Below, in pieces: positions 1,001 through 36,338 of a stretch of DNA of 64,000 nucleotides. Source of the DNA: Bolinopsis microptera (Eukaryota; Ctenophora; Tentaculata; Lobata; Bolinopsidae); NCBI RefSeq assembly GCF_026151205.1, contig NC_087078.1, forward strand, positions 13,437,118 to 13,501,117, in the 5' to 3' direction. The first letter of the stretch is position 1. Each line of letters begins with the position of its first letter. Below the pieces are notes generated by a model. The model was not told where the DNA came from. It made no database searches and saw only the letters and a program-made list of their open reading frames with translations. The position numbers were made by a program, and so were the translations under genes.

Positions 1001-2711
1001 GTTTCTAATCCATGGCCGTAAGTATTAGTCTGATCACACCTTTATTTCATTTTCTGTGACGGACTTTTAACCAGGTTTACCTTTTCTAGCTATGACAAGT
1101 AACCGGTCGGAGCAGACAGTTGCGTAACATCGTTTGTAGAAGACTACTGTCTAATCGGTAAGTATTAATAATTGTTATATATAAAGTGATATATTTGGAA
1201 TTGCTTAAATAGGGAATTAGAGTTATTTTATTGTGTAATAAAGTATTTTGTTTTGTACATACGAATAAGGAATTTCATTTGGTATCTAACAGTAAAACCT
1301 TTAATTTTATAAATGTGATCTCCTCGGATGTTTCGAAATGGCCACAACCCATCTCGATAATTTTATATCTCTCATTCCGTCAAATCTTACATTTCTAACA
1401 GTGAAACCGTAAAGTGTCCATTGAGAGCAATTCAATATCAATCCATCACGATAAGTTATGTAGAAGATTCAAATTGTCAAACATGGAAGACTTTTGAGGA
1501 TTAAGCATATGATAAGAACGGTGGGAATAAGTATGAATGAGCACTTCACATCAATGAGAATACATAACAACATAGTTAATAAACAAATTCCGCATCGAAA
1601 TGGTATTTAAATAGAATATAATAGAATATAAACGAATTCGGAAACGAAACAATTAAATTAAAGAGCTACTAACGTATTCGAGTGAACATATGACAGTATT
1701 TTCTTTAGCGCTCGATTTTCACACTTCGATGTAAATTGTCGAAAATATGCGCGGCACATCCAACATCTTATAGGATTTTGATTTCATTTTATAATGATTT
1801 TTTAGCGGGAATACATATATATTTATATATATATATACAGCAACGAAATATATATATATATATATATAACATTTAAATTAGTCTTAACTATTGATTATAA
1901 GATTAATTAAAAATTTTCCCACGATTATATATTTATTTGTATCACGTTGCGACCCCAACGGTCGTTTCACTATTTCACCGTTTCACTGTTTCACTGTTTC
2001 ACTGTTTCACCCTTTATAGTCCTGACGATACAGGGGAGCCGCGCACTCGTGCACGGCGGGTCATACAACGTATGACAAATATTTATATAAAGCGCGAAAG
2101 CCTAAATTTGACCACTTTTTGAATTTGCTTTGGATTAAAAATCTTGAAATAATTATTTAATTTTAACTGTTAACATTATCTTGTGCGATTCCAAAAAACT
2201 CTACTGATTAGAGTTTAAAGGGTGATCATACTCGTAAAATATATGTTCCAAAGACCGTCAACGAGTCCAATTCGGCGCATAGCATGTCTTGATAAGTTAT
2301 TAACTTGCTCTAACCAGAGCCCTCTCGCTTGCAGTAGCGCGCGACGGCCGAAACAAGCGCGTCACGCAGTACGCGTACACACATGGCTATGTCAAGTTAT
2401 TAACATACTAGTTAGAGTCTATCTCCAAAAGTAAAATAAATATCAACCTCCGTTTTTCAGCAAAATTTTTATCTCGTAAAACTAAAGTCAGCTTCCGATC
2501 CCAGGAGCACAATTTGAGATTACCTATAAGCTTGATTAATAGTTCTCACATATGGGTGCGATTACAGATTAGATTTTGGTCGTTCTCATGTAGCTGTGCA
2601 CATGCTCATACGTTTTTGTTTTGTTGTTTATGAGTAAGCTATGTGACTTTGAAAGTAAGCTGATTTCGAATAAAACTTATTACTGATTACATAGCATGAA
2701 AATCATTTTTT
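1001..2711. other. Non-coding stretch with AT microsatellite
   Basis: No gene seen. It holds an AT/ATAT tract at about 1806-1868 and a 10-bp unit, GTTTCACT plus two variable bases, repeated at about 1965-2012. Short open frames at 1937 and 2222 have no recognisable content. Confidence 0.6.
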
Positions 2712-2719
2712 GACGAGTT

Positions 2720-2805
2720 TTACTGGGCCGCGCTCAGCCTGTCATTCCGCCGAATCTCTATATCATATATGTTTATAAACATAATAGCCTGAGGTCCCCA
2801 GGTAA
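2720..2805 (-). mobile_element. Tiny hAT-like MITE, complete copy
   Basis: An 86-bp element with imperfect terminal inverted repeats, TTACTGGG at this end and TTACCTGGGG read from the other end. It is flanked by a perfect 8-bp direct repeat GACGAGTT (2712-2719 and 2806-2813). The interior has the palindrome TGTTTATAAACA and the conserved box GACAGGCTGAGCGC. A second complete copy at 27465-27562 has a different perfect 8-bp flank, so both ends and the duplication length are supported. An 8-bp duplication suggests hAT-type mobilisation. That class is inferred, since no transposase is encoded. Confidence 0.85.
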
Positions 2806-2813
2806 GACGAGTT

Positions 2814-4341
2814 ATGATCAAATAACCATTTTTATCAGACGTGCGCACGTAACAGGCTTGTTAAACGATATTTTAGCTGAATTTATGCTTTATATATAAT
2901 TAAAAATTGAAAATACAACCATATACACAGGCCGCCGCGCACACAGCTACACATTGTTGAGATATCCTTAGATGCGGCTGTAAGCGTCGCGCGCAGAGTC
3001 TATTCAATTGTTATTGTACAATTACATGTCACATTTATTAATTACTAGAGCCAACATTTCAAAAGCAGAATAATTTTAGGGTTATTTTGTATTTTGCGCG
3101 CGAGCTCAAACTTGCTGTAATAAAAAGCTTGACATACGTTGCATGCCACTTTTCGCGCGCGAAGCGCGCCGCCGAAGGCGGAAAAATAATATTTGTGATG
3201 ATATTTGTGATACGTAACATGTATCAATAAAAAGCATTTCAAACTTAAACCTATCGCGATGCAAATTTTGCTGATATTTTTCTCGAAAAATCAAAGACAA
3301 CATTGATCATGCATTATTTTTTTGCATTTTTGGGCTATCTCAGGATTACTGATTATCAACAATCATGTGTGCCTAGTGTTTCGAGAAAAAATAGGCGCGC
3401 GCTACTTCAAAGAAATTCAGACGAGTATCATCCGTCAATATTTTGAAAATCGGTGCGATGCACCACTGGGCCACGCTGAACTGCGAAAGATTGACATTTT
3501 CTATCAATAATCACGTTAGCTAGTGAATCTGAAGAAAATTCTTTCGAAACTGATAGAGTGTAGAGGAAGTGGCTTAAAATGTAAAATGTTAATTAGGACC
3601 AGCTGTTGTAGGTTTACAACCTACTAGAACGCGCGCCGAGTTGGACTCGGTCCAATATTGAATATATGGAACAGATATTTTACGAGTATCACCCGTTAAG
3701 ACCAGCTGTCTTTATGGTCCCATGTAAAATATGGTTCCTTCCCATTACAAAATTATCGCTGGTTTAAGGTAAGCGCTTGAGTGTAAAATATGTATTTTAT
3801 TCGATTTTGGAAATTTTGGAACTCTAAAACATAAAAATTGCGTCAACAAAAAGGATTCAAGATTTTAAAAATCAAACAAATATTTATTCAATCAAACTAG
3901 TTAAGTAAATAAATAAAAATAATATCTTTGAATTGATCCATGCAGCATATCCTAAAAGTTCCAGGGTGATTGCTCAACAAATGTAGGAGAAATTGATGTT
4001 CCCCCTACCATCGAGTGTAGAAATAAGTAATCAGGTTTGGATATAGGAATACAAGGAATACAAGGAATATAAGGAATACAAATAATACAAATAATACAAA
4101 TTTAAAATCTTAAGTTACAATAGTAACTGTTAAGATAATAACAATATCATAAGATTTGAATTTATTATATTAATATAACTTAAACTAAAGTGATAAATAA
4201 AGATTTTGACAAAAAAAATTTTGTTTACAGTCGCCTTGGTAATGCTGTGTGCTGTAATGCGTATATATATTAAGCCAGGCCACTTTGCACTCGTTGTTGC
4301 GCGAAAAGAAACAAAAGCGCTGGTACAGTGATTTTCAGTGT
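2814..4341. other. Non-coding stretch
   Basis: No gene seen. Bases 3145-3182 form a GC-rich self-complementary patch (GCGCGCGAAGCGCGC then GCCGAAGGC). Bases 4045-4100 carry an AATAC/AATACAAGG short repeat. The short open frames here have no domain signal. Confidence 0.55.
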
Positions 4342-19544: not shown

Positions 19545-22500
19545 ATGGCCAAACTTTACATTGGTAATGTTGATAAGCACACCGACAAGCGCGAGCTGGA
19601 GACGGAGTTTGCTAAGTTCGGAGCTCTGAGAGAAGTCTGGGTTGCCCGACACCCTCCTGGATTCGCTTTCGTCGAGTTCGAGGATGACAGGTAGACGATA
19701 TTCCTTGCTATTTTTAGGCGAAATCTTTAAATTTTCAATCAATATACAATATTTGAATATCAACAGAGTACAACCAACTAATCAAGCTGCACTACATTGA
19801 CATGCAAAGGTTGCATGTGAATGTAGTTGATTGAACGCTCATTGTTTTCTTTAAGAAAACATTATTAAATTATTGGTAATGTTTATTTTGTAGTGCAGAC
19901 CGTATAAAAAATGAACATTATTAACATTATAAACACTTTCCCATCAGAGACGCAGAAGATGCCATCAGAGAAATGGACGACAGGAGTGTTTGTAACAGCA
20001 GAATCAGAGTAGAGTGGGCCAAGTCTAACGGCAGAAAACCCCCTCCTCGAGACAGAGGTGGTTTCAGTGGCAAACGAAAATCCAGGTACTTCAGAGTTTG
20101 ATATTTTTTTGTCGTTATAAATACTCAAGTTTACTCTAGTGCTGGAATTTTCTCGTACGTTTTGCGTCTGTTTGGACGCGGCGGACTCTTTGTAGGATTC
20201 ATAAGGTGGAATTTGTGTGACCCATTGTAGTGTGGTTGTTGGCGGAGTGTAAAATTCTTAAGATTCTTACGTCTTACAGTTCAAGACTTTGAGTCCGGTG
20301 TTGTCCAAACAGACATAAAAAATTTAACCGAATACATCTAGCCCTGGAGTAAGTTGTTAAGTAATATTTAAAAACTATTCGAGACATAACCTCCTATCAT
20401 ATTAGGGTGCTCGCCCGATCTCGAACGATCGTAGCATCGCATCCCTTCGCTGCCACCACTTCGCATCGTATCTCACACCGCACTTGTATCCTCGTCTCGT
20501 AAGATCTAACATCGCATCGTAACATCGCATCATTTCTCCCGCAACCTACACATCAATAATTGGATTTACAAACGGCGGCTGTTGTCTGACGTCATGTCAC
20601 GTGGTGTGTGACGTCATGTCACGTGTTGTGCGAACAACCGCCTATAATAATCGTCCCGGCAACAATTTGTAGCATCCTCCAACAATTTGTGGGTCATCTT
20701 AAGTCAGCTCTGGTAAGAGACACGGACAAGTCTGGCAATGAAATGTTCAATGACTTTTCCTAACATGGGGCTGTTTTGATTCTCTTGTAAAAAACGTAAA
20801 AAATGTACTTTCTGTTTTGGTCTTGATTTTATTTCCAAGGCTCCTCAATCAAGTGCTATGCATGTTCAATTAAACCGAATATTTATTACTTGCATATTTT
20901 CTACCATCATGATATTTAGGTCTAGAAGCCCACCCCGAAAGAGGCGCAGTCCTCCTCCAAGACGACGATCCCCGTCTCCAAGAAGACGATCTCCTTCCCC
21001 CAAACGATCCTCCCCGAGACGATCTCCTAGACGATCTGCCTCCCCCCGGCGAGCAGCAAGGTGGGAACATTTATCTTAAATTAAGAAAATTGTAAGATCT
21101 GTCAAGCACACTTGAGATGTGAGAAATGGCTCGCATGTCTACTAACATCCCCTGTGCTTACTAAGTAACTATGTCTCAGTGCATCATGTTTATTTTATTA
21201 AACATAATGCACAAGTTTTTAAAAATGTTGTTAAATTTGGCGTTCCATTCTCTACAATACTTGTGAAAACACTGCAAATAAATTGGTGATCAATATCATC
21301 ATTCGATAAAAGCTGATTTCTGGTATGCATAAATTTACGACACACGATTATTTCCATTTAGTATTTGCCTTGTTTCACTTGCTCTTCCTTGATGATCCAT
21401 ACTAAACACTACAGCTATTTGACATGTCTGCTTTATAAACACGGTTAAATCGGTGTAAAACTACCCTGCTCAGGACGGTCGTCTCCGAACAGTACAACAC
21501 ACGTTATGATTATTTCTGCACGTTTCTGTTCGCCGAATAAAAGGAACTAACACTTCCCGTGCACGGAACGCGCGAAATAGCGTCTTCAGTACAAACGCAT
21601 AGTTTGTAACCATTTTCAGGAGATGCGAGCGCAGCGCGCGCGCTCAGTCACGGCTGTTCAGAACGTCGATTTTTGCGATTCTAATTAGATAGGATTACCC
21701 TAGGATTTATCCTAGCGCGTCCGAGATATCTCGGATTTTATCAATCCTAACGCCGATCCAGTCCCCCCCCAGGATACCTCCGATGAATTCCTATCGCCGA
21801 GCGGCGATAGGATGTGTAAGTTCCGAGAGGCGATAGGATTTGCTCTCGGACCCGATAGGAAATTAAAAACCTATCGGATCCGAGCGCTAATCCTAGCGGA
21901 GATAGGATTTAACAATTCCGAGTGCCGAAAGGATTTGCTCTCGGACCCGATAGGATACTCAAATCCTATAGGATCCGAGAGCAAATCCGAGAGGCGATAA
22001 AATTTCAAATATCAGGACCGATATAATTGGAAGACGACGCATATCTAACTGTAGGTTGAAACTTCAAGCTTTCTGTCAGTTAACTTCAGGATCATATCAG
22101 ATCGCTTTATCTTAAGTTGATCCACGGTTGCCTGCAGGTTACAACAACTTGGAGGTTGTTTAGGTTAAATTAAGTAGATAAATGATAACTTTAAGCTAAC
22201 TTGTAGTTCTCTATAAGAGTTAACTCTAGGATACCTTGTAGTACTCTTCAAGTTAACTTCAGAATACCTTGTAGTACTCTTCAAGTTAACTTCAGGATAC
22301 CTTATAGTACCCTTCAAGTTAACTTCAGAATACCTTGTAGTACTCTTCAAGTTAACTTCAGGTTACCTTGTAGTACTTTTTGAGTTAACTCTAGGATACC
22401 TTGTAGTACTCTTCAAGTCAACTTCAGGATAACTTGTAGTTCTCTTCAAGTTAACTTCAGGATACATTGTAGTACTCTTCAAGTTAAGTTCAGGATACCT

Positions 22501-23702
22501 TGTAGTACTCTTCAAGTTAACTTCAGGATATAACCTTGTAGTACTTTTTGAGTTAACTCTAAGATACCTTGTAGTACTCTTCAAGTCAACTTCAGGATAA
22601 CTTGTAGTACTCTTCAAGTTAAATCCAGGATACCTTGTAGTACTCTTCAAGTTAACTTCAGGATACCTTGTAGTACTTTTCGAGTTAACTCTAGGATACC
22701 TTGTAGTACTCTTCAAGTCAACTTCAGGATAACTTGTAGTACTCTTCAAGTTAAATCCAGGATACCTTGTAGTACTCTTCAAGTTAACTTCAGGTTACCT
22801 TTTAGTACTTTTTGAGTTAACTCTAGGATACCTTGTAGTACCCTTCAAGTTAACTTCAGGATACCTTGTAGTACTCTTCGAGTTAACTTCAGGATATAAC
22901 CTTGTAGTACTTTTTGAGTTAACTCTAGGATACCTTGTAGTGCCCTTCAAGTTAACTTCAGGTTACCTTGTAGTACTTTTTGAGTTAACTCCAGGATACC
23001 TTGTAGTACTCTTCAAGTTAAGTTCAGGATACCTTGTAGTACTCTTCAAGTTAACTTCAGGATATAACCTTGTAGTACTTTTTGAGTTAACTCTAGGATA
23101 CGTTGTAGTACTCTTCAAGTCAACTTCAGGATAACTTGAAGTACTCTTCAAGTTAAATCCAGGATACCTTGTAGTACTCTTCAAGTTAACTTCAGGATAC
23201 CTTGTAGTACTCTTCAAGTTAACTTCAGGATACCTTGTAGTGCCCTTCAAGTTAACTTCAGGATACCTTGTAGTACTCTTCAAGTTAAATCCAGGATACC
23301 TTGTAGTACTCTTCAAGTTAACTTCAGGATAACTTGTAATACTCTTCAAGTTAAACCCAGGATACCTTGTAGTACTCTTCAAGTTAACTTCAGAATACTT
23401 TACGTACTGCAGTACGTACGTGCGAGCGTATATATATACCGCGCGATCAACATTTTAATTTAGCGGTTACATTTTTTGTGTTCTTTCGGAAACCTTGAAA
23501 AATATAATTTTATGACTATCAGCCCATCGATTAAAACTAACCCATATAGAACATTTCTGCTACTTCCTGCTAATTACATGTCAATGATTCTAACACTCTC
23601 CTCAGTCGTAGTCCACGAAGGAGTCCTGACAGAGAGATGTACCGCGGCGGCAGCCCCAGCAGAAGAGGTGGCAGCCCCAGATACGACGATTACAACAGAT
23701 AG
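19545..23702 (+). CDS. SR gene B: SRSF3-like SR splicing factor
   Basis: Coding exons 19545-19690, 19948-20085, 20920-21060 and 23606-23702, all with GT-AG junctions and phase-2 introns, give 173 residues. The RRM (about 3-75) has LYIGNV as RNP2 and PPGFAFVEF as RNP1, with the VWVARHPPGFAFVEFED run typical of the SRSF3/SRSF7 group; the last strand is IRVEWAKS. The RS domain is shorter and more irregular than in gene A and ends in a Gly/Ser/Tyr tail (RYDDYNR). It starts about 420 bp after the gene A stop in the same orientation. Gene A and gene B differ more than B and C do, so A/B is the older split. Intron 3 contains a 1.2-kb minisatellite. An AATAAA signal lies at 24109-24114. Confidence 0.9.
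20132..20351. mobile_element. Hairpin MITE-like element in SR gene B intron 2
   Basis: About 220 bp with imperfect inverted ends (TACTCTAG.GCT at the left, TACTCCAGGGCTAGA read from the right) and a stronger inner inverted pair GTCTGTTTGGAC...CGGACTC. Four bases, AGTT, are repeated at both flanks. The same element sits at the homologous place in gene C, so it inserted before the B/C duplication. Class unknown. Confidence 0.5.
20587..20625 (+). promoter_or_regulatory. Paired CRE plus E-box module in SR gene B intron 2
   Basis: TGACGTCA occurs at 20587-20594 and 20609-20616, each followed four bases later by CACGTG (20598-20603 and 20620-20625). This is a direct 22-bp tandem of CRE then E-box. 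TGACGTCA is the palindromic CREB/ATF site and CACGTG the bHLH-ZIP site. A good donor, CTGGTAAGA, lies about 85 bp downstream (near 20710). The block could therefore be an internal promoter with an alternative non-coding first exon; that is inference. Conserved in gene C at 26260-26298. Confidence 0.5.
21690..22015. repeat. Palindrome-rich GATAGGATTT/CGGACCCGATAGG repeat
   Basis: Both orientations of GATAGGATTTGCTCTCGGA and related words (CCTATCGGATCCGAG) recur several times over about 320 bp, so the sequence can fold on itself. It is absent from the matching intron of gene C, so it was inserted in B or lost in C. Confidence 0.55.
22195..23396. repeat. 33-bp minisatellite in SR gene B intron 3
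   Basis: About 36 tandem units of 33 bp, core TTAACTTCAGGATACCTTG then TAGTACTCTTCAAG. Because 33 is a multiple of three and the unit lacks minus-strand stops, the minus strand reads an 11-residue repeat (KSTTRYPEVNL type). I treat that as a by-product: no start, flanking exon or composition supports a protein. Variants (CTTTTTGAG, AAATCCAGG, GATATAACC) recur in the same order, showing higher-order duplication. Absent from gene C. Confidence 0.92.
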
Positions 23703-24183
23703 AAAGTCCAAAGCTACCATACCCATCCAAGGCTGAACTCAATTTATTCGGGCTGAACATCTTTTCTGTATATCCGTGGACTAAGTTTTAATGGTTACGA
23801 AAAACGTTACTTTCTTATTTGTATCGCAAATACACGAAGCAGACTTATTTTTACTTTACTGTGCTAGATGTAGTCCCTTTCACCCTTGAAACTTTCACAT
23901 GCTTTCTTGAGTTCGAAGAAGTCTTCTTACAACACCGGATATTTATTATTTACTGAATATTTTGATATTATATGATTGTAATTCTTCACTCTTGACGTAC
24001 AACGATATGAAAGTCTTACTTGGTTTTGTTCTCAACTATCATACTTGAATTTTATTAAAAAAGGTATCATCACAGTAATTTGATAAATTATTATATAAGT
24101 TACTTAATAATAAATGAGCGAAAATAAGTTTCTTTATTGATCGCATACTGCTATTAATCAGCACACAGCTAATGCTATTAGTA

Positions 24184-25220: not shown

Positions 25221-28200
25221 ATGGCCAAACTTTATATTGGTAATGTTGATAAGCACACCGACAAGCACGAGCTGGAGACGGAGTTTGCTAAGTTCGGAGC
25301 TCTGAGAGAAGTCTGGGTTGCCCGACACCCTCCTGGATTCGCTTTCGTCGAGTTCGAGGATGACAGGTAGACGATATTCCTTGCTATTTTTAGGCAAAAT
25401 ATTTAAATTTTCAATCAATATACAATAGTTGAAAATCAACAGAGTACAACCAACTAATCAAGCTGCACTACATTGACATGCAAAGGTTGCATGTGAATGT
25501 AGTTGATTGAACGCTCATTGTTTTCTTTAAGAAAACATTATTAAATTATTGGTAATGTTTATTTTGTAGTGCAGACCGTATAAAAATTGAACATTATTAA
25601 CATTATAAATACTTTCCCATCAGAGACGCAGAAGATGCCATCAGAGAAATGGACGACAGGAGTGTTTGTGGCAACAGAATCAGAGTAGAGTGGGCCAAGT
25701 CTAACGGCAGAAAACCCCCTCCTCGAGACAGAGGTGGTTTCAATGGCAAACGAAAATCCAGGTACTTCAGAGTTTGATATTTTCTTGACGTTATAAATAC
25801 TCGAGTTTTCTCTTGTGCTGGAATTTTCTCGTATGTTTTGCGTCTGTTTGGACTCGGCGGACTCTTTGTAGGATTCATAAGGTGGAATTTGTGTGACCCA
25901 TTGTAGTGTGGTCGTTGGCGGGGTGTTAAATTCTTAAGATTCTTACGTCTTACAGTTCAAGACTTTGAGTCCGGTGTTGTCCAAACAGACATAAAAAATT
26001 TAACCGAATACATCTAGCCCTGGAGTAAGTTGTTAAGTAATATTTAAAAACTATTCGAGACATAACCTCCTATCATATTAGGGTGCTCGCCCGATCTCGA
26101 ACGATCGTAGCATCGCATCCCTTCGCTGCCACCACTTCGCATCGTATCTCACACCGCACTTGTATCCTCGTCTCGTAAGATCTAACATCGCATCGTAACA
26201 TCGCATCATTTCTCCGCAACCTACACATCAATAATTGGATACAAACGGCGGCTGTTGTCTGACGTCATGTCACGTGGTGTGTGACGTCATGTCACGTGTT
26301 GTGCGAACAACCGCCTATAATAATCGTCCCGGCAACAATTTGTAGCATCCTCCAACAATTTGTGGGTCATCCTAAGTCAGCTCTGGTAAGAGACACGGAC
26401 AAGTCTGGCAATGAAATGTTCAATGACTTTTCCTAACAAGGGGCTGTTTTGATTCTCTTGTAAAAAACGTAAAAAATGTACTTTCTGTTTTGGTCTTGAT
26501 TTTATTTCCAAGGCTCCTCAATCAAGTGCTATGCATGTTCATTTAAACCGAATATTTATTACTTGCATATTTTCTACCATCATGATATTTAGGTCTAGAA
26601 GCCCACCCCGAAAGAGGCGCAGTCCTCCTCCAAGACGACGATCCCCATCTCCAAGAAGACGATCTCCTTCCCCCAAACGATCCTCTCCGAGACGATCTCC
26701 TAGACGATCTGCCTCCCCCCGGCGAGCAGCAAGGTGGGAACATTTATCTTAAATTAAGAAACAGTATAACACACGTTATGATTATTTCTGCACGTTTTTG
26801 TTCGCCGAGTAAAAGGAACTAACACATCCCGTGCACGGAACGCGCGAAATAGCGTCTTCAGTACAAACGCATAGTTTGTAACCATTTTCAGGAGATGCGA
26901 GCGCAGCTCAGCTAGTACGTACGTACGTACGTACGCGCATACATATATATACTGCGCGGGGGGGTACCAATGGCATAAATGGCATAATGGAGAATTGGCC
27001 AAGCAAAATTTCCATTTATGCCATGAAATTTCTATGCCATTTGACGATTTTTATGCCATTTGTCTCCATTTTATGCCATTCGAAATATGAAATTTTAAAA
27101 CTTTGAACTGAGAATTTAATAACGAATAGTCTGCACCCCACTAGTACTGTCACCTTTATCTCTATTTGTTGTACTGACCCTGGTCATTAGAAACACCCCT
27201 AAAAGTTCGTTTTTTGACAAAAAATTGAAAACTTCTGTAATTTCATTTATGTTTTAGTTACGCATTTGATTTTTGGTATGCGTATAGAAAATCGATACGG
27301 CTTTAAAATGAGATGTTCGGCGACCTCCTAGCTCACTCACTAGACTCAGTAGGAGTGATTTAACTGCGAGGGACAATTGAGGCTAACAAATTAGCCTCAC
27401 CACTTTCAAAAAAGAACTTTCTCATGTTACGTCCATGATATTCAAGTTGCAAGTATAATCCATATTACCTGGGGACCTCAGGCTATTATGTTCACAAACA
27501 TAGAGATTATGTTCATAAACATAGAGATTCGGCGGAATGACAGGCTGAGCGCGGCCCAGTAAAATCCATAGTGATTATACTTGATCGAGATCTAAGCTTT
27601 AAATATTCGAGGTGAAAATGAGGCTAACCACCTTTTGAGAGGGTGAAATGAGGCTAACAAGTATACTTTTGTGTATATTTTCGAGTTGGTTCGGTATTGT
27701 GACTATCTAATATGTCAACAATAAAGATTGATTCATCCTCTTCAAACTCAACATTTCAGAAATCGCCGAGTCTACTTGTAGGAGGCCAAAATGAGGCTAA
27801 TAAATAATTCGACCGCATTTTAACTTTAATGTACGGAAACAGGTTAACAGCTCACACGTTACTTGATATCCATGTTGCACATGAAATTCCTTGGGATTAT
27901 ATTTAATCGGTATTTAAGCTTCAAATATTCGAGGTGAAAATGAGGCTAACCACCCTTTGAGAGGGTGAAATGAGGCTAACAAGTATACTTTTGTGTATAT
28001 TTTCGAGTTGGTTCGGTATTGTGACTATCTAATACGTCAACAATAAAGATTGATTCATCCTCTTCAAACTCAACATTTCAGAAATCGCCGAGTCTACTTG
28101 TAGGAGGCCAAAATGAGGCTAATAAAAAATTCGACCGCATTTTAACTTTAATGTACGGAAACAGGTTAACAACTCACAAGTTACTTGATATCTATGTTGC

Positions 28201-30562
28201 ACATGAAATTCCGTCGGATTATAGCTTCAAATTTTCGAGGTGAAAATGAGGCTAACCACCTTGTGAGAGGGTGAAATGAGGCTAACAAGTATACTTTTGT
28301 GTATATTTTCGAGCATGTTCGGTATTGTGACTATCTAATGTGTCAACAATAAAAATTTATTCATCCTCTTCAAGCTCAACATTTCAGAAATCGCAGAGTC
28401 TTCTTGTACTTGTAGGAAGCCAAAATGAGGCTAATAAATGATTCGACCGCATTTTAAGTTGTAACTTTAATGTACGGAAACATGTTATAGACCCACTATA
28501 AAACTTGTAACTGTAGCCCGAAGGTTATTGAGACTTTATCGAAACTTATGTGAGGTTGGATTGAGGCTACCTTCCCTCCTTGAGGCAAAATTGAGGCTAA
28601 CAGATACACTACACAGACAATTGTCACAATTGTCACACTGTGCCAGCTATAAGTAGTTGCTGAGCAGCAGCAGCAGTTAGATGAAGAAAATGAAGTTGAG
28701 GATGGAAATGTATTAGAGCTGTTGGCTAGAGTAGGCCCCTTACTTCTATGGAGTTCTCTGGCCAATTGCTCTGGCAATGCTCTCCATGGGGCCATGTAAT
28801 ATCACATGATCTGATATCATGCCAAATTAGACTCTAAACTATAAAGTATAATAAAAATGGAACTGTTTGAGAAAAAACATTTTTCGTTACTTGGAAAGAG
28901 AATACTTACTCAGCTGTCAGCATAACGAATCAGACGTACCTTGATCTTATATGTACTTGTGACGGTCTTGTTTTGTATTTAACTCTGCTGAAGAAGCAAT
29001 TCCCTAATGCTGAAATCGTCACTTATTACCTTGGAAGTGATCAGAATGAGCAGCTGTTTGCATTTATTCGGGTTTCTTTTTCATCTGGTCGCTCAAGAAA
29101 TATGGATGCGATAACTATGGCCCATGGAATGGAGAGAAAGAATGTGTACAGTGCTTTATCATTACATGAAGACACATCTGCAATTGCACATGCACGTGGA
29201 AGTACAGTTTTGCATCCTACAGTTCACCTCAAAAAGGTTAAATCTACAAGCCAGAAAGCAGAACGAGTGAAATGGACTGGTGGTATGATAAGCCTAGGCA
29301 AGTTGGCAAAAACGCTGGACAGGGCATCGAGGGACTGCATTCGAGAAGGGAAAAGAAACAATTACCCTGTGTTCGCCGCAGTCGCAGATCCTGAAGAACG
29401 GAGTGGGAAGCCAATCGTCCATGGCCAAGAACTTTTTTGGGAAGCTGTAGATGATGAAGCTGGATGCCTCGAGGATGAGGACGACTTAGCTTATGAGGTA
29501 GAACCTGGAGTTGATGATTGTGATGATGGAGAAACGATATCAACAGATAAATATGGAACACTATCCTTCCGGTCTTTTGAGACACTCACGCTCAATGGAG
29601 GAAGAAGCACTTTATCAACAAAATCTCGTCTTTCAAGATTCAAGGGGGACGCGTTTGGAGTGTCTTCTGATGTTCGCATATACAATCAACCTGAATGCGG
29701 ATGTTCAACAGTTTTGAAAGCTGGCAGTACAGAAACTCTTAAAGTCTTCAAATCTCAGCAGGACTTTGCAACAGGAGTGGTTAGATTTATTTCTTATAAG
29801 TCATGCCCCATGAAGTACTACTGCCAGGAACATAGCCTAATCAATGGATCTCCTAATGTTTGGCTACTCGTCGAAGACAAATACATCAGATGCATTGTTC
29901 CTTGATGACATTCAAAATCGTTGTGTTGTCAATGTTTGTATTCTGTACATTTTGAACATCTCACAATTTGCTTTTCTTGAATAGTGAAATGTTTGGTATA
30001 TATTTGATATAATACATTTCTATTTTCTTTATTTGTCATATGAATCTTTGACTTTAACGATCATTCCAAGCGTTATAAAGCATGAAACATGTCTCTTATT
30101 CAAGTACTAATAATATTTGCGAATCTAAAGTCATCCTAAAGGTCAAATATGAAGACCTAAATTCATGGCATAAATTGGCATAAATGGAGAATTGGCCAAG
30201 CATAAATTTCCATTTATGCCATGAAATTTCTATGCCATTTGACGATTTTTATGCCATTTGTCTCCATTTTATGCCATTGGTACCCCCCCTACTGCGCGAT
30301 CAACATTTTAATTTAGCGGTTACATTTTTTGTGTTCTTTTGGAATTCGGAAACCTTGAAAAATATAATTTTATGACTATCAGCCCATCGATTAAAATTAA
30401 CACATATAGAACATTTCTGCTACTTCCTGCTAATTACATGTCAATGATTCTAACACTCTCCTCAGTCGTAGTCCACGAAGGAGTCCTGACAGAGAGATGT
30501 ACCGCGGCGGCAGCCCCAGCAGAAGAGGTGGCAGCCCCAGATACGACGATTACAACAGATAA
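25221..30562 (+). CDS. SR gene C: recent duplicate of SR gene B
   Basis: Coding exons 25221-25366, 25624-25761, 26593-26733 and 30466-30562, all phase-2 GT-AG introns, give 173 residues. It differs from gene B at only a few codons: Arg to His in exon 1, NS to GN and Ser to Asn in exon 2. RRM (LYIGNV and PPGFAFVEF), RS domain and RYDDYNR tail are intact, so it should work as a splicing factor like B. Its third intron lacks the 33-bp minisatellite of B and instead carries a 3.3-kb DNA transposon. It also lacks about 410 bp present in B after exon 3. An AATAAA signal lies at 30964-30969, about 20 bases from the opposite-strand signal of receptor 3. Confidence 0.9.
25808..26027. mobile_element. 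Hairpin MITE-like element, gene C copy
   Basis: Orthologous to 20132-20351 by position, with the inner inverted pair GTCTGTTTGGAC...GTCCAAACAGAC preserved. It was carried along in the gene B/C duplication and is not a new insertion. Confidence 0.5.
26260..26298 (+). promoter_or_regulatory. Paired CRE plus E-box module in SR gene C intron 2
   Basis: TGACGTCA at 26260-26267 and 26282-26289, CACGTG at 26271-26276 and 26293-26298, with the same spacing as in gene B. No base of the four boxes has changed, but the B/C duplication is too recent for that to prove constraint. Confidence 0.5.
27465..27562 (+). mobile_element. Tiny hAT-like MITE, second complete copy (nested)
   Basis: 98 bp with ends TTACCTGGGG and CCCAGTAA and a perfect 8-bp flank AATCCATA (27457-27464 and 27563-27570). 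The interior matches the copy at 2720-2805, including GACAGGCTGAGCGCGGCCC, with an internal duplication of the ACATAGAGATTATGTTCA part. It is inserted inside the larger transposon, so it is the younger of the two. Confidence 0.88.
27598..28490 (+). repeat. Three tandem ~310-bp units with GAGGCTAA words
   Basis: Units start near 27598, 27917 and 28225, each with ATTCGAGGTGAAAATGAGG, then GAGGCTAACAAGTATAC, then GCCAAAATGAGGCTAATAA. The word TGAGGCTA occurs about a dozen times between 27378 and 28592, nearly always in the same orientation. Such spaced repeats in a transposon may be transposase-binding sites; that is inference. No coding frame crosses the units. Confidence 0.85.
28973..29905 (+). 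CDS. Transposase-like ORF of the 3.3-kb DNA transposon
   Basis: 310 codons from the TTG at 28973; the frame is already open from 28871 (about 34 more codons) with no ATG, so the true start or an upstream exon is unseen. The segment LGSDQNEQLFAFIRV (near residue 21) resembles the D-x2-E-x2-F-x2-IR pattern near the C-terminal catalytic part of P- and hAT-type RNase H-fold transposases. The middle is acidic (DEAGCLEDEDDLAYE), and the end has Cys/His residues (ECGCS, CPMKYYC). No complete catalytic triad can be seen, so this is likely the C-terminal part of a transposase. Function is inferred from its position between the transposon ends. It carries no internal stop, so the copy may be fairly young. 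Confidence 0.6.
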   Translation: MYLTLLKKQFPNAEIVTYYLGSDQNEQLFAFIRVSFSSGRSRNMDAITMAHGMERKNVYSALSLHEDTSAIAHARGSTVLHPTVHLKKVKSTSQKAERVKWTGGMISLGKLAKTLDRASRDCIREGKRNNYPVFAAVADPEERSGKPIVHGQELFWEAVDDEAGCLEDEDDLAYEVEPGVDDCDDGETISTDKYGTLSFRSFETLTLNGGRSTLSTKSRLSRFKGDAFGVSSDVRIYNQPECGCSTVLKAGSTETLKVFKSQQDFATGVVRFISYKSCPMKYYCQEHSLINGSPNVWLLVEDKYIRCIVP

Positions 30563-31039
30563 AAAGTCCAAAGCTACCATACCCTTCCAAGGCTGAACTC
30601 AATTTATTCGGGCTGAACATCTTTTCTGTATATCCGTGGACTAAGTTTTAATGGTTACGAAAAACGTTACTTTCTTATTTGTATCGCGAATACACGAAGC
30701 AGACTTATTTTTACTTTACTGTGCTAAATGTAGTCCCTTTCACCCTTGAAACTTTCACATGATTTCTTGAGTTCGAAGAAGTCTTCTTGCAACACCGGAT
30801 ATTTATTATTTACTGAATATTTTGATATTATATGATTGTAATTCTTCACTCTTGACGAACAACGATATGAAAGTCTTACTTGGTTTTGTTCTCAAATCTC
30901 ATACTTGAATTTTATTAAAAAAGGTATCATCACACTAATTTGATAAATTATAAGTGACTTAAGAATAAATGAGCGAAAATAAGTTTTTTTTATTGATCGC
31001 ACACTGCTATTAATCAGCACACAGCTAATGCTATTAGTA
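30563..31039. other. Convergent 3' flanks of SR gene C and receptor 3
   Basis: No gene. AATAAA on the plus strand at 30964-30969 (SR gene C) faces AATAAA on the minus strand at 30989-30994 (receptor 3), 19 bases apart. The same pair exists at 24109-24114 and 24133-24138. At the third copy the plus-strand signal has decayed to GATAAA (about 36264) while the minus-strand one is kept (36288-36293). Confidence 0.7.
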
Positions 31040-35375: not shown

Positions 35376-35765
35376 TCCATAATCCAATTTGGAAATGGTC
35401 CGACGACCTAAATTCTACATGCGTATCACAATGCTGGCAAGCATGGCCGTGCCTCTTATATTCACAATACTATTTACCCCCTCAACTATTTACCCCCTTT
35501 ATTATTTACCCCCTTTACTATTATACCCTGTTATCATTTTTCAGGCATTAAGACTCATCGAAAGTAGTTCAGCAGGTATATTTAAGTTCAAAACATTCTA
35601 ATTCAATGTTAAAGATGACAGGAATAAAAAATAGTTATGTGGAACTGGAGGTTTTTAATGGTGATTTATCTGACTATTAGCCCATCGATTAAAATTATAA
35701 CCCATATAGAACATTTCTGCTACTTCCTGCTAATTACATGTCAATGATTCTAACACTCTCCTCAG
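35376..35765. other. Junction region before third SR-exon/receptor copy
   Basis: No gene seen. A TATTTACCCCCT short repeat lies at 35465-35520. Similarity to the SR gene C intron resumes at about 35670, marking the left edge of the third duplicate. Confidence 0.5.
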
Positions 35766-35862
35766 TCGTAGTCCACGAAGGAGTCCTGACAGAGAGATGT
35801 ACCGCGGCGGCAGCCCCAGCAGAAGAGGTGGCAGCCCCAGATACGACGATTACAACAGATAG
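35766..35862 (+). pseudogene. Orphan SR gene B/C terminal exon
   Basis: 97 bp matching 23606-23702 and 30466-30562, with acceptor CTCCTCAG and final TAG intact, but no upstream SR exons between it and gene C. Its AATAAA has become GATAAA. It could serve as an alternative last exon only if gene C were transcribed 5 kb further through receptor 3. Confidence 0.85.
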
Positions 35863-36338
35863 AAACTGAAAGACCAAAGCTACCCTTCCAAGGCTGAACT
35901 CAATTTATCTGGGCTGAACATCTTTTCTGTATATCCGTAGACTAAGTTTTAATGGTTACGAAAAACGTTACTTTCTCATTTGTATCGCAAATACACGAAG
36001 CAGACTTATTTTTACTTTACTGTGCTAGATGTAGTCCCTTTCACCTTTGAAACTTTCACATGATTTCTTGAGTTCGAAGAAGTCTTCTTACAATACCGGA
36101 TATTTATTATTTACTGAATATTTTGATATTATATGATTGTAATTCTTCACTCTTGACGAACAACGATATGAAAGTCTTACTTGGTTTTGTTCTCAACTCT
36201 CATACTTGAATTTTATTAAAAAGGTATCATCACAGTAATTTGATAAATTATAAGTTACTTAAGGATAAATGAGCGAAAATAAGTTTCTTTATTGATCGCA
36301 TACTGCTATTAATCAGCACACAGCTAATGCTATTAGTA

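Follow-up and report, generated by a model that had tools for sequence, protein, structure and literature searches.

A young DNA transposon with G-run ends and a probably P-like transposase lineage in the ctenophore Bolinopsis microptera

The closest described counterparts of the element reported here are found in the P superfamily of DNA transposons (P, 1360, Galileo; THAP9/Pdre2; PDB 6p5a, 6pe2). The ends of P elements in general start with CA, and those of hAT elements such as Hermes and hobo are likewise of the CA type. The P-like element Pdre2, for instance, is described with ends starting 5'-CATACC (PMC10983969). The superfamily is characterized by target site duplications (TSDs) of 7-8 bp, and internally deleted copies have been reported for Pdre and Galileo. 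Two aspartates of the P transposase, D528 and D444, contact a GTP cofactor, and the enzyme is called unique among transposases and integrases in its use of GTP in a review (PMC7776569). This cofactor hydrogen-bonds the terminal base of the transferred 3' end. Target preferences have been given as GTCCGGAC for Drosophila P and as GTNCGNAC for the hAT element hobo, and TSDs of 5 bp for two Transib families (PMC3276498). The DxxH motif is common to hAT, MuDR, Kolobok and Dada (PMC9587614, PMC3706591), and therefore does not decide placement by itself. Dada, which is distantly related to P, hAT, MuDR and Kolobok, combines DxxH with TSDs of 6-7 bp and inserts in RNA genes, and the Dada families described have no terminal inverted repeats (PMC3706591).

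The window analysed here is a stretch of 64,000 nucleotides of the B. microptera genome (NC_087078.1, positions 13,437,118 to 13,501,117), and window positions are used throughout. It contains a DNA transposon of 3332 bp at 26958-30289. An earlier note on this DNA had reported a G7-ended transposon at 26950-30297; the element is real, but that span takes in the TSDs as well. The left terminal inverted repeat (TIR), GGGGGGGTACCAATGGCATAAA (26958-26979, forward strand), opens with seven G (26958-26964) and is complementary over all of its 22 nt to the right TIR (30268-30289, reverse strand), which closes with seven C (30283-30289). Next to the ends lie two subterminal blocks of ~110 nt in direct orientation on the forward strand, the left one (26970-27080) with ATGGCATAAA-like words and the right one (30165-30278) a direct repeat of it, with 75 nt identical between the two. 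The first 218 bp of the element (26958-27175) are common to the other structural classes that were read, which diverge past this point. They are followed by the non-coding interior that marks the class of derivatives to which the window copy belongs (27176-28872), within which three tandem units of ~300 nt each carry ATGAGGCTAA words (27562-28489); all nine exact occurrences of this word in the window fall inside the element. The direct blocks and the arrayed words had been described correctly in the earlier note, as had the dissimilarity of the ends to those of the superfamilies considered. An open frame of 344 codons (28871-29905, forward strand) occupies much of the remainder. No description of the element was found in the literature searched; Repbase lay outside this search and may hold a record.

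The insertion is documented by an 8-bp TSD, TACTGCGC, at 26950-26957 and 30290-30297. When the two flanks are joined, they align without a gap at the junction to a paralogue at 23401-24035, in which a single uninterrupted site, TACCGCGC (23437-23444), differs from TACTGCGC by one mismatch, in line with what had been claimed before. The right arm of this alignment measures 598 nt. The left arm reaches only 42 nt, all of it low-complexity flank and with two small gaps, because ~1.8 kb of different sequence occupies the interval 21635-23401 of the paralogue; on the far side of this sequence, the paralogue matches the flank of the element again. RS-rich coding sequence adjoins the element, and the RS-rich host gene region is represented at least three times in the window (20685-24035, 26357-30898 and 35671-36196) at ~96-99% identity.

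The window element belongs to a repeat family, here called family I. The 5' 201 bp, used as a query against the 265-Mb assembly, gave 40 scored matches at 96-100% identity, of 297 candidates. All 23 copies of family I for which both ends were read are flanked by an exact 8-bp TSD, 22 of these duplications being distinct, in a scan that considered positions inside the G/C runs and tolerated as many as two other letters per run (a stricter scan missed the 8-bp TSD in L016 and L040). Loci with no right end in the sequence read (L018, L034, L058, L060, L063 and L064) are outside this count. Two copies ~3.8 kb apart, L013 and L042 (C5:19.875-19.882 Mb), have the same TSD and flanks, and the region was therefore probably duplicated after insertion; their end runs are by now different (8/11 and 10/19, respectively). 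Seven G is the commonest run length at each end of family I, with a range of 5-28 on the left and 6-39 on the right; runs of at most seven are present at both ends in 6/23 copies and at one end in 12/23, and both runs are longer in 5/23. This variation looks like slippage after insertion, with homopolymer assembly error as another possibility. The median copy of the open frame differs from the majority at 7 positions per ~1030 nt, and family I was therefore active recently.

The target sites of family I show a symmetric preference, TG[GA]-N[TA]CCGG[AT]N-[CT]CA. The preference amounts to 2.69 bits over 16 positions, compared with a mean of 1.01 and a maximum of 2.22 in 5000 shuffles; individual sites are not palindromic (41/154 pairs, null 37.7, p 0.29). 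The CCGG centre fits the preference of P best, without being exclusive to P, since the hobo motif is partly similar too.

Family I comprises several structural classes. Longer copies with additional 5' coding sequence, a search for which had been suggested in the earlier note, were found in L017 and L018, where the upstream coding sequence runs straight into the frame seen in the window; the window frame is therefore the C-terminal piece of a transposase, homologous to the longer copies from 28873 onward, and the non-coding interior of the window copy replaces the 5' sequence and coding of L017 and L018. In a genome search, 29 matches retain the 5' segment adjoining the shared 218 bp. Seven such loci were read. 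Five of them, L058-L062, have reverse-transcriptase frames in mid-element (Pfam RVT_1, 5/5) and rejoin the transposase frame at differing points, and they were consequently rejected as the source of the N-terminal coding part; in the portions of L063 and L064 that were read, no ORF was seen. Several kinds of internally altered copies thus have common ends. No autonomous family I copy was found in the genome search, which may miss weak matches.

In 6/6 LINE-type insertion events seen within family I (L014, L017, L058, L059, L060/L061 counted as one, and L062), the inserted sequence is antisense to the transposase frame; five of the events were recognised by RVT_1 and that of L017 solely by similarity to a LINE ORF1. 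The latter ORF, which carries 2OG-Fe(II) and GDSL domains, lies beside L021 and has a weak relative inside L017 (tblastx). It was considered as a second transposon gene and rejected, because in L023 it is followed by an ORF with a PHD finger and an endonuclease, so that it is taken as a probable LINE ORF1. In the ORF1 of this probable LINE (L023:270-1883 and 2672-3727; L021:4272-5876), an AlkB-like oxygenase of the 2OG-Fe(II) type (Pfam 3.1e-19) is combined with a GDSL domain (2.3e-4), and 11 near-full copies at 99-100% identity were present among 81 scored matches.

The 344-codon frame is counted from stop to stop, and its first Met is codon 78. It starts about 60 codons ahead of the catalytic Glu deduced from the relatives, which is codon 29048-29050 of an SDQNEQ motif (29036-29053, forward strand) that also holds an Asp three residues earlier; the window copy accordingly retains only the Glu part of the catalytic core. 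Toward the C-terminus, a C-x-C ... C-x2-H module (29696-29833) forms a possible zinc site, and a similar pattern is present in relatives. A genome search returned nine near-identical copies, that of the window included, that are open over codons 1 or 2 to 344, together with numerous interrupted copies and more remote relatives whose frames reach 766 aa. Private changes in 21 family I sequences number 69 nonsynonymous, 20 synonymous and 6 stop (omega about 1.09), for a neutral expectation of 0.71, 0.22 and 0.07, and shared changes 17 nonsynonymous and 6 synonymous (omega about 0.89). The window frame drifts neutrally between copies. Pfam and PDB sequence searches with this frame alone gave chance-level matches only.

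Related proteins occur in further families with G-run ends. Family II has a C-terminal frame of 521 aa that is about 30% identical, has GGGGGTGATGCAACGACC ends, and carries an exact 8-bp TSD in 8/8 loci with both ends, out of 11 loci scanned (L008, L048 and L049 are one-ended); its private changes in seven sequences are 37 nonsynonymous, 14 synonymous and 1 stop, again with an omega of about 1.09. The ends of family III consist of 8-14 G followed by CCAAGTGGATATTTGTAG, and its TSDs measure 6 bp in 4/4 copies with both ends, that of L045 being 6 or 7 bp and that of L012 less sure, as this copy sits in a tandem repeat; L022 has one end only. Duplications of ~6 bp were seen at L043/L054, L044/L056, L045/L055 and L012/L057. 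The transposase of family III is related to those of families with 8 bp, and the length of the stagger thus seems to have shifted among these relatives. Families I and II fall within the 7-8 bp of the P superfamily, whereas family III (6 bp, one 6 or 7) does not. In L011, which is 48-52% identical, a G17 end was seen on a single side. TIR/TSD scans of the more distant relatives L005, L019, L020 and L021 found no ends.

Homology connects the window frame with the 766-aa frame of L005 and with L019-L021. L005 carries a further frame of 206 aa ~1.6 kb beyond the first, the latter part of which matches the C-terminus of the transposase, and between the two lies an antisense frame of 376 aa without a Pfam match, which is read as LINE-like. 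Four motifs recur in every relative whose sequence covers them: [IV]D[AS]T...G in L005, L019 and L020; [GD]DGD in L005, L019, L020 and L047; DxxHxxKK in the same four and in family II; and SDxNEQ in family I, family II, L005 and L019. The N-terminus of L005 has a C-x2-C...H-x5-H pattern resembling a C2H2 finger, and neither this protein nor the N-terminal ORF of L019 has a Pfam match to THAP; the N-terminus of the family I transposase itself did not turn up in the copies read. A C-terminal C-x(n)-C...C-x2-H pattern is present in 6/7 proteins inspected, L019 having C-x-H instead.

Profile searches gave no significant match for these proteins. Pfam searches with 15 aligned members yielded two families at chance level, one member each, and no match to a P model, and an hmmsearch of the group profile against PDB gave none. 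The MULE model PF10551 had no match in the proteins of the group; elsewhere in the same genome it had 88 matches, none of which, compared by eye, fell within the stretches fetched for the elements. The models PF12017 and PF21787 (Tnp_P_element and TNP-like_RNaseH_N) had no match in the genome, but none in the controls either. The same holds for PF18758 (KDZ / Zisupton), for which hmmscan of the group's proteins was negative as well. Two queries against viral contigs returned no relatives. The profile search proposed in the earlier note gave nothing significant in Pfam or PDB, but the fold prediction that it had also proposed does place the transposase.

A model of the whole 766-aa L005 protein had a pLDDT of 40 and no Foldseek match at E 0.001. 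A later model of the L005 core, built on 397 residues with 15 aligned sequences, reached pLDDT 58 and pTM 0.63, with 142/397 residues below pLDDT 50, and is thus of moderate confidence. The best Foldseek match of this core is the Drosophila P element transposase 6p5a (E 2.4e-7, probability 1.00), followed by Transib (1.3e-3). VIA aligns 294 residues with 6p5a at 3.5 A and 12% identity (Z 21.9), over a range of 6p5a (212-545) that takes in the helical insertion of P, whose boundaries are given as 339-528 (PMC8230255). Z scores were lower for Transib (11.5), RAG1 (9.3) and Hermes (8.1, at 7.6 A). In the model, D301 lies in beta1, the second Asp just past beta4, DxxH directly past beta5 and E663 in the last helix, which is the placing described for D, D, DxxH and E in the RNase H core of P (PMC8230255). 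The RNase H core and all-helical insertion of this relative are thus predicted to form a P-type fold. The earlier note was also right about a faint P/hAT-like motif in the open frame. Since the ends of L005 were not found, homology to families I-III is all that joins the P fold to the G-run ends.

The similarity may extend to the GTP site. D660 of L005 precedes the catalytic Glu by three residues, as D528 does in P, and D588 follows D486 by 102 residues, where D444 of P follows the DxxH residue D339 by 105. By spacing, D660 and D588 would therefore match the GTP-contacting aspartates of P, and use of a GTP cofactor might be inferred by analogy; no equivalent of P residue N447 is evident in L005.

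In our interpretation, the window element is a cut-and-paste DNA transposon that is young and non-autonomous and belongs to a P-like lineage, with a probability of about 0.82. Besides the predicted core, with its all-helical insertion and D/D/DxxH/DxxE order, the group shares with P the 8-bp TSD (families I and II), the symmetric target preference with CCGG centre and the occurrence of internally deleted copies. It differs from P in the G-run ends of families I, II and III and of one L011 end, as opposed to CA-type ends, in the C2H2-like finger of L005 and in the C-terminal cysteine-histidine module. In the absence of a THAP match and of CA ends, it is therefore not filed as a P element proper. 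The earlier note's view of the transposase as unplaced no longer applies at the level of the fold; its ends, N-terminal domain and sequence nevertheless lie outside described P elements. These same differences, along with the lack of a significant Pfam match, the 12% identity to P, and duplications of 6 or 8 bp, could also be taken to delimit a separate, undescribed superfamily that stands beside P as its sister and does not belong to it. This differs from the P-like reading in rank and is compatible with it, and we consider it possible although doubtful: the fold, the order and spacing of the motifs, the 8-bp TSD and the target centre are those of P, and ends and DNA-binding domains can change inside one superfamily. 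A bolder version, in which the sister superfamily has functional G-runs, GTP pairs in Watson-Crick fashion with the terminal C during end recognition, and the length of run and duplication (6 or 8 bp) is free, is unlikely. It is suggested by the terminal base of the transferred end, the partner of GTP in P, being C in G-run elements, which makes a role of GTP in end recognition a candidate.

Other origins are less probable still. An affiliation with hAT, which has an 8-bp TSD, C/DxxH and a helical insertion domain ahead of the catalytic Glu, and whose member hobo has a partly similar target motif, is very improbable, as the Hermes structure is much less similar to the L005 core than that of P (Z 8.1 at 7.6 A versus 21.9 at 3.5 A) and no hAT Pfam domain was reported. 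Transib and RAG1 share an RNase H core with insertion domain and rank directly behind P in the fold search, but they are set apart by their Z scores. Unlike Dada, the G-run elements have clear TIRs, and the insertion sites read differ from one another. With regard to the open frame itself, truncated repressors occur in P elements, and a functional product under selection could explain why nine copies are open throughout and why family II retains its 521-aa frame in several copies. However, substitutions look neutral in both families and no Met precedes codon 78; the frames are still open because the copies are young, and selection on a product appears quite improbable. Capture of a host-gene fragment by the transposon, an origin that the earlier note had named as one that would speak against its reading, is scarcely credible: nothing was found in its favour, and most of the frame is homologous to transposase-like proteins from other repeat families, which have TIRs and TSDs of their own.

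For the P-like reading, the following mode of transposition can be proposed. The transposase would be supplied from elsewhere and have an RNase H core of the P type (D, D, DxxH, E), interrupted by an all-helical insertion domain. It would bind the words repeated in the subterminal blocks, cleave the element at its G-run ends and link the 3' C ends to a target cut in staggered fashion, giving rise to the 8-bp duplications. The window copy has kept what such an enzyme would act upon, namely the ends and subterminal repeats, along with about the C-terminal third of the transposase frame. As the rest of the transposase has been replaced by repeat-rich non-coding DNA, this copy would be movable only in trans, and it was presumably mobilised in this way.

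The sequence of the families allows annotation of elements that are missed by Pfam. A divergent lineage that combines the predicted core of P with different DNA-binding domains, ends of G/C tracts and duplications of 6 or 8 bp would furthermore offer natural variants that bear on the function of GTP at the tip of the transposon and on which part of the enzyme sets the stagger length.
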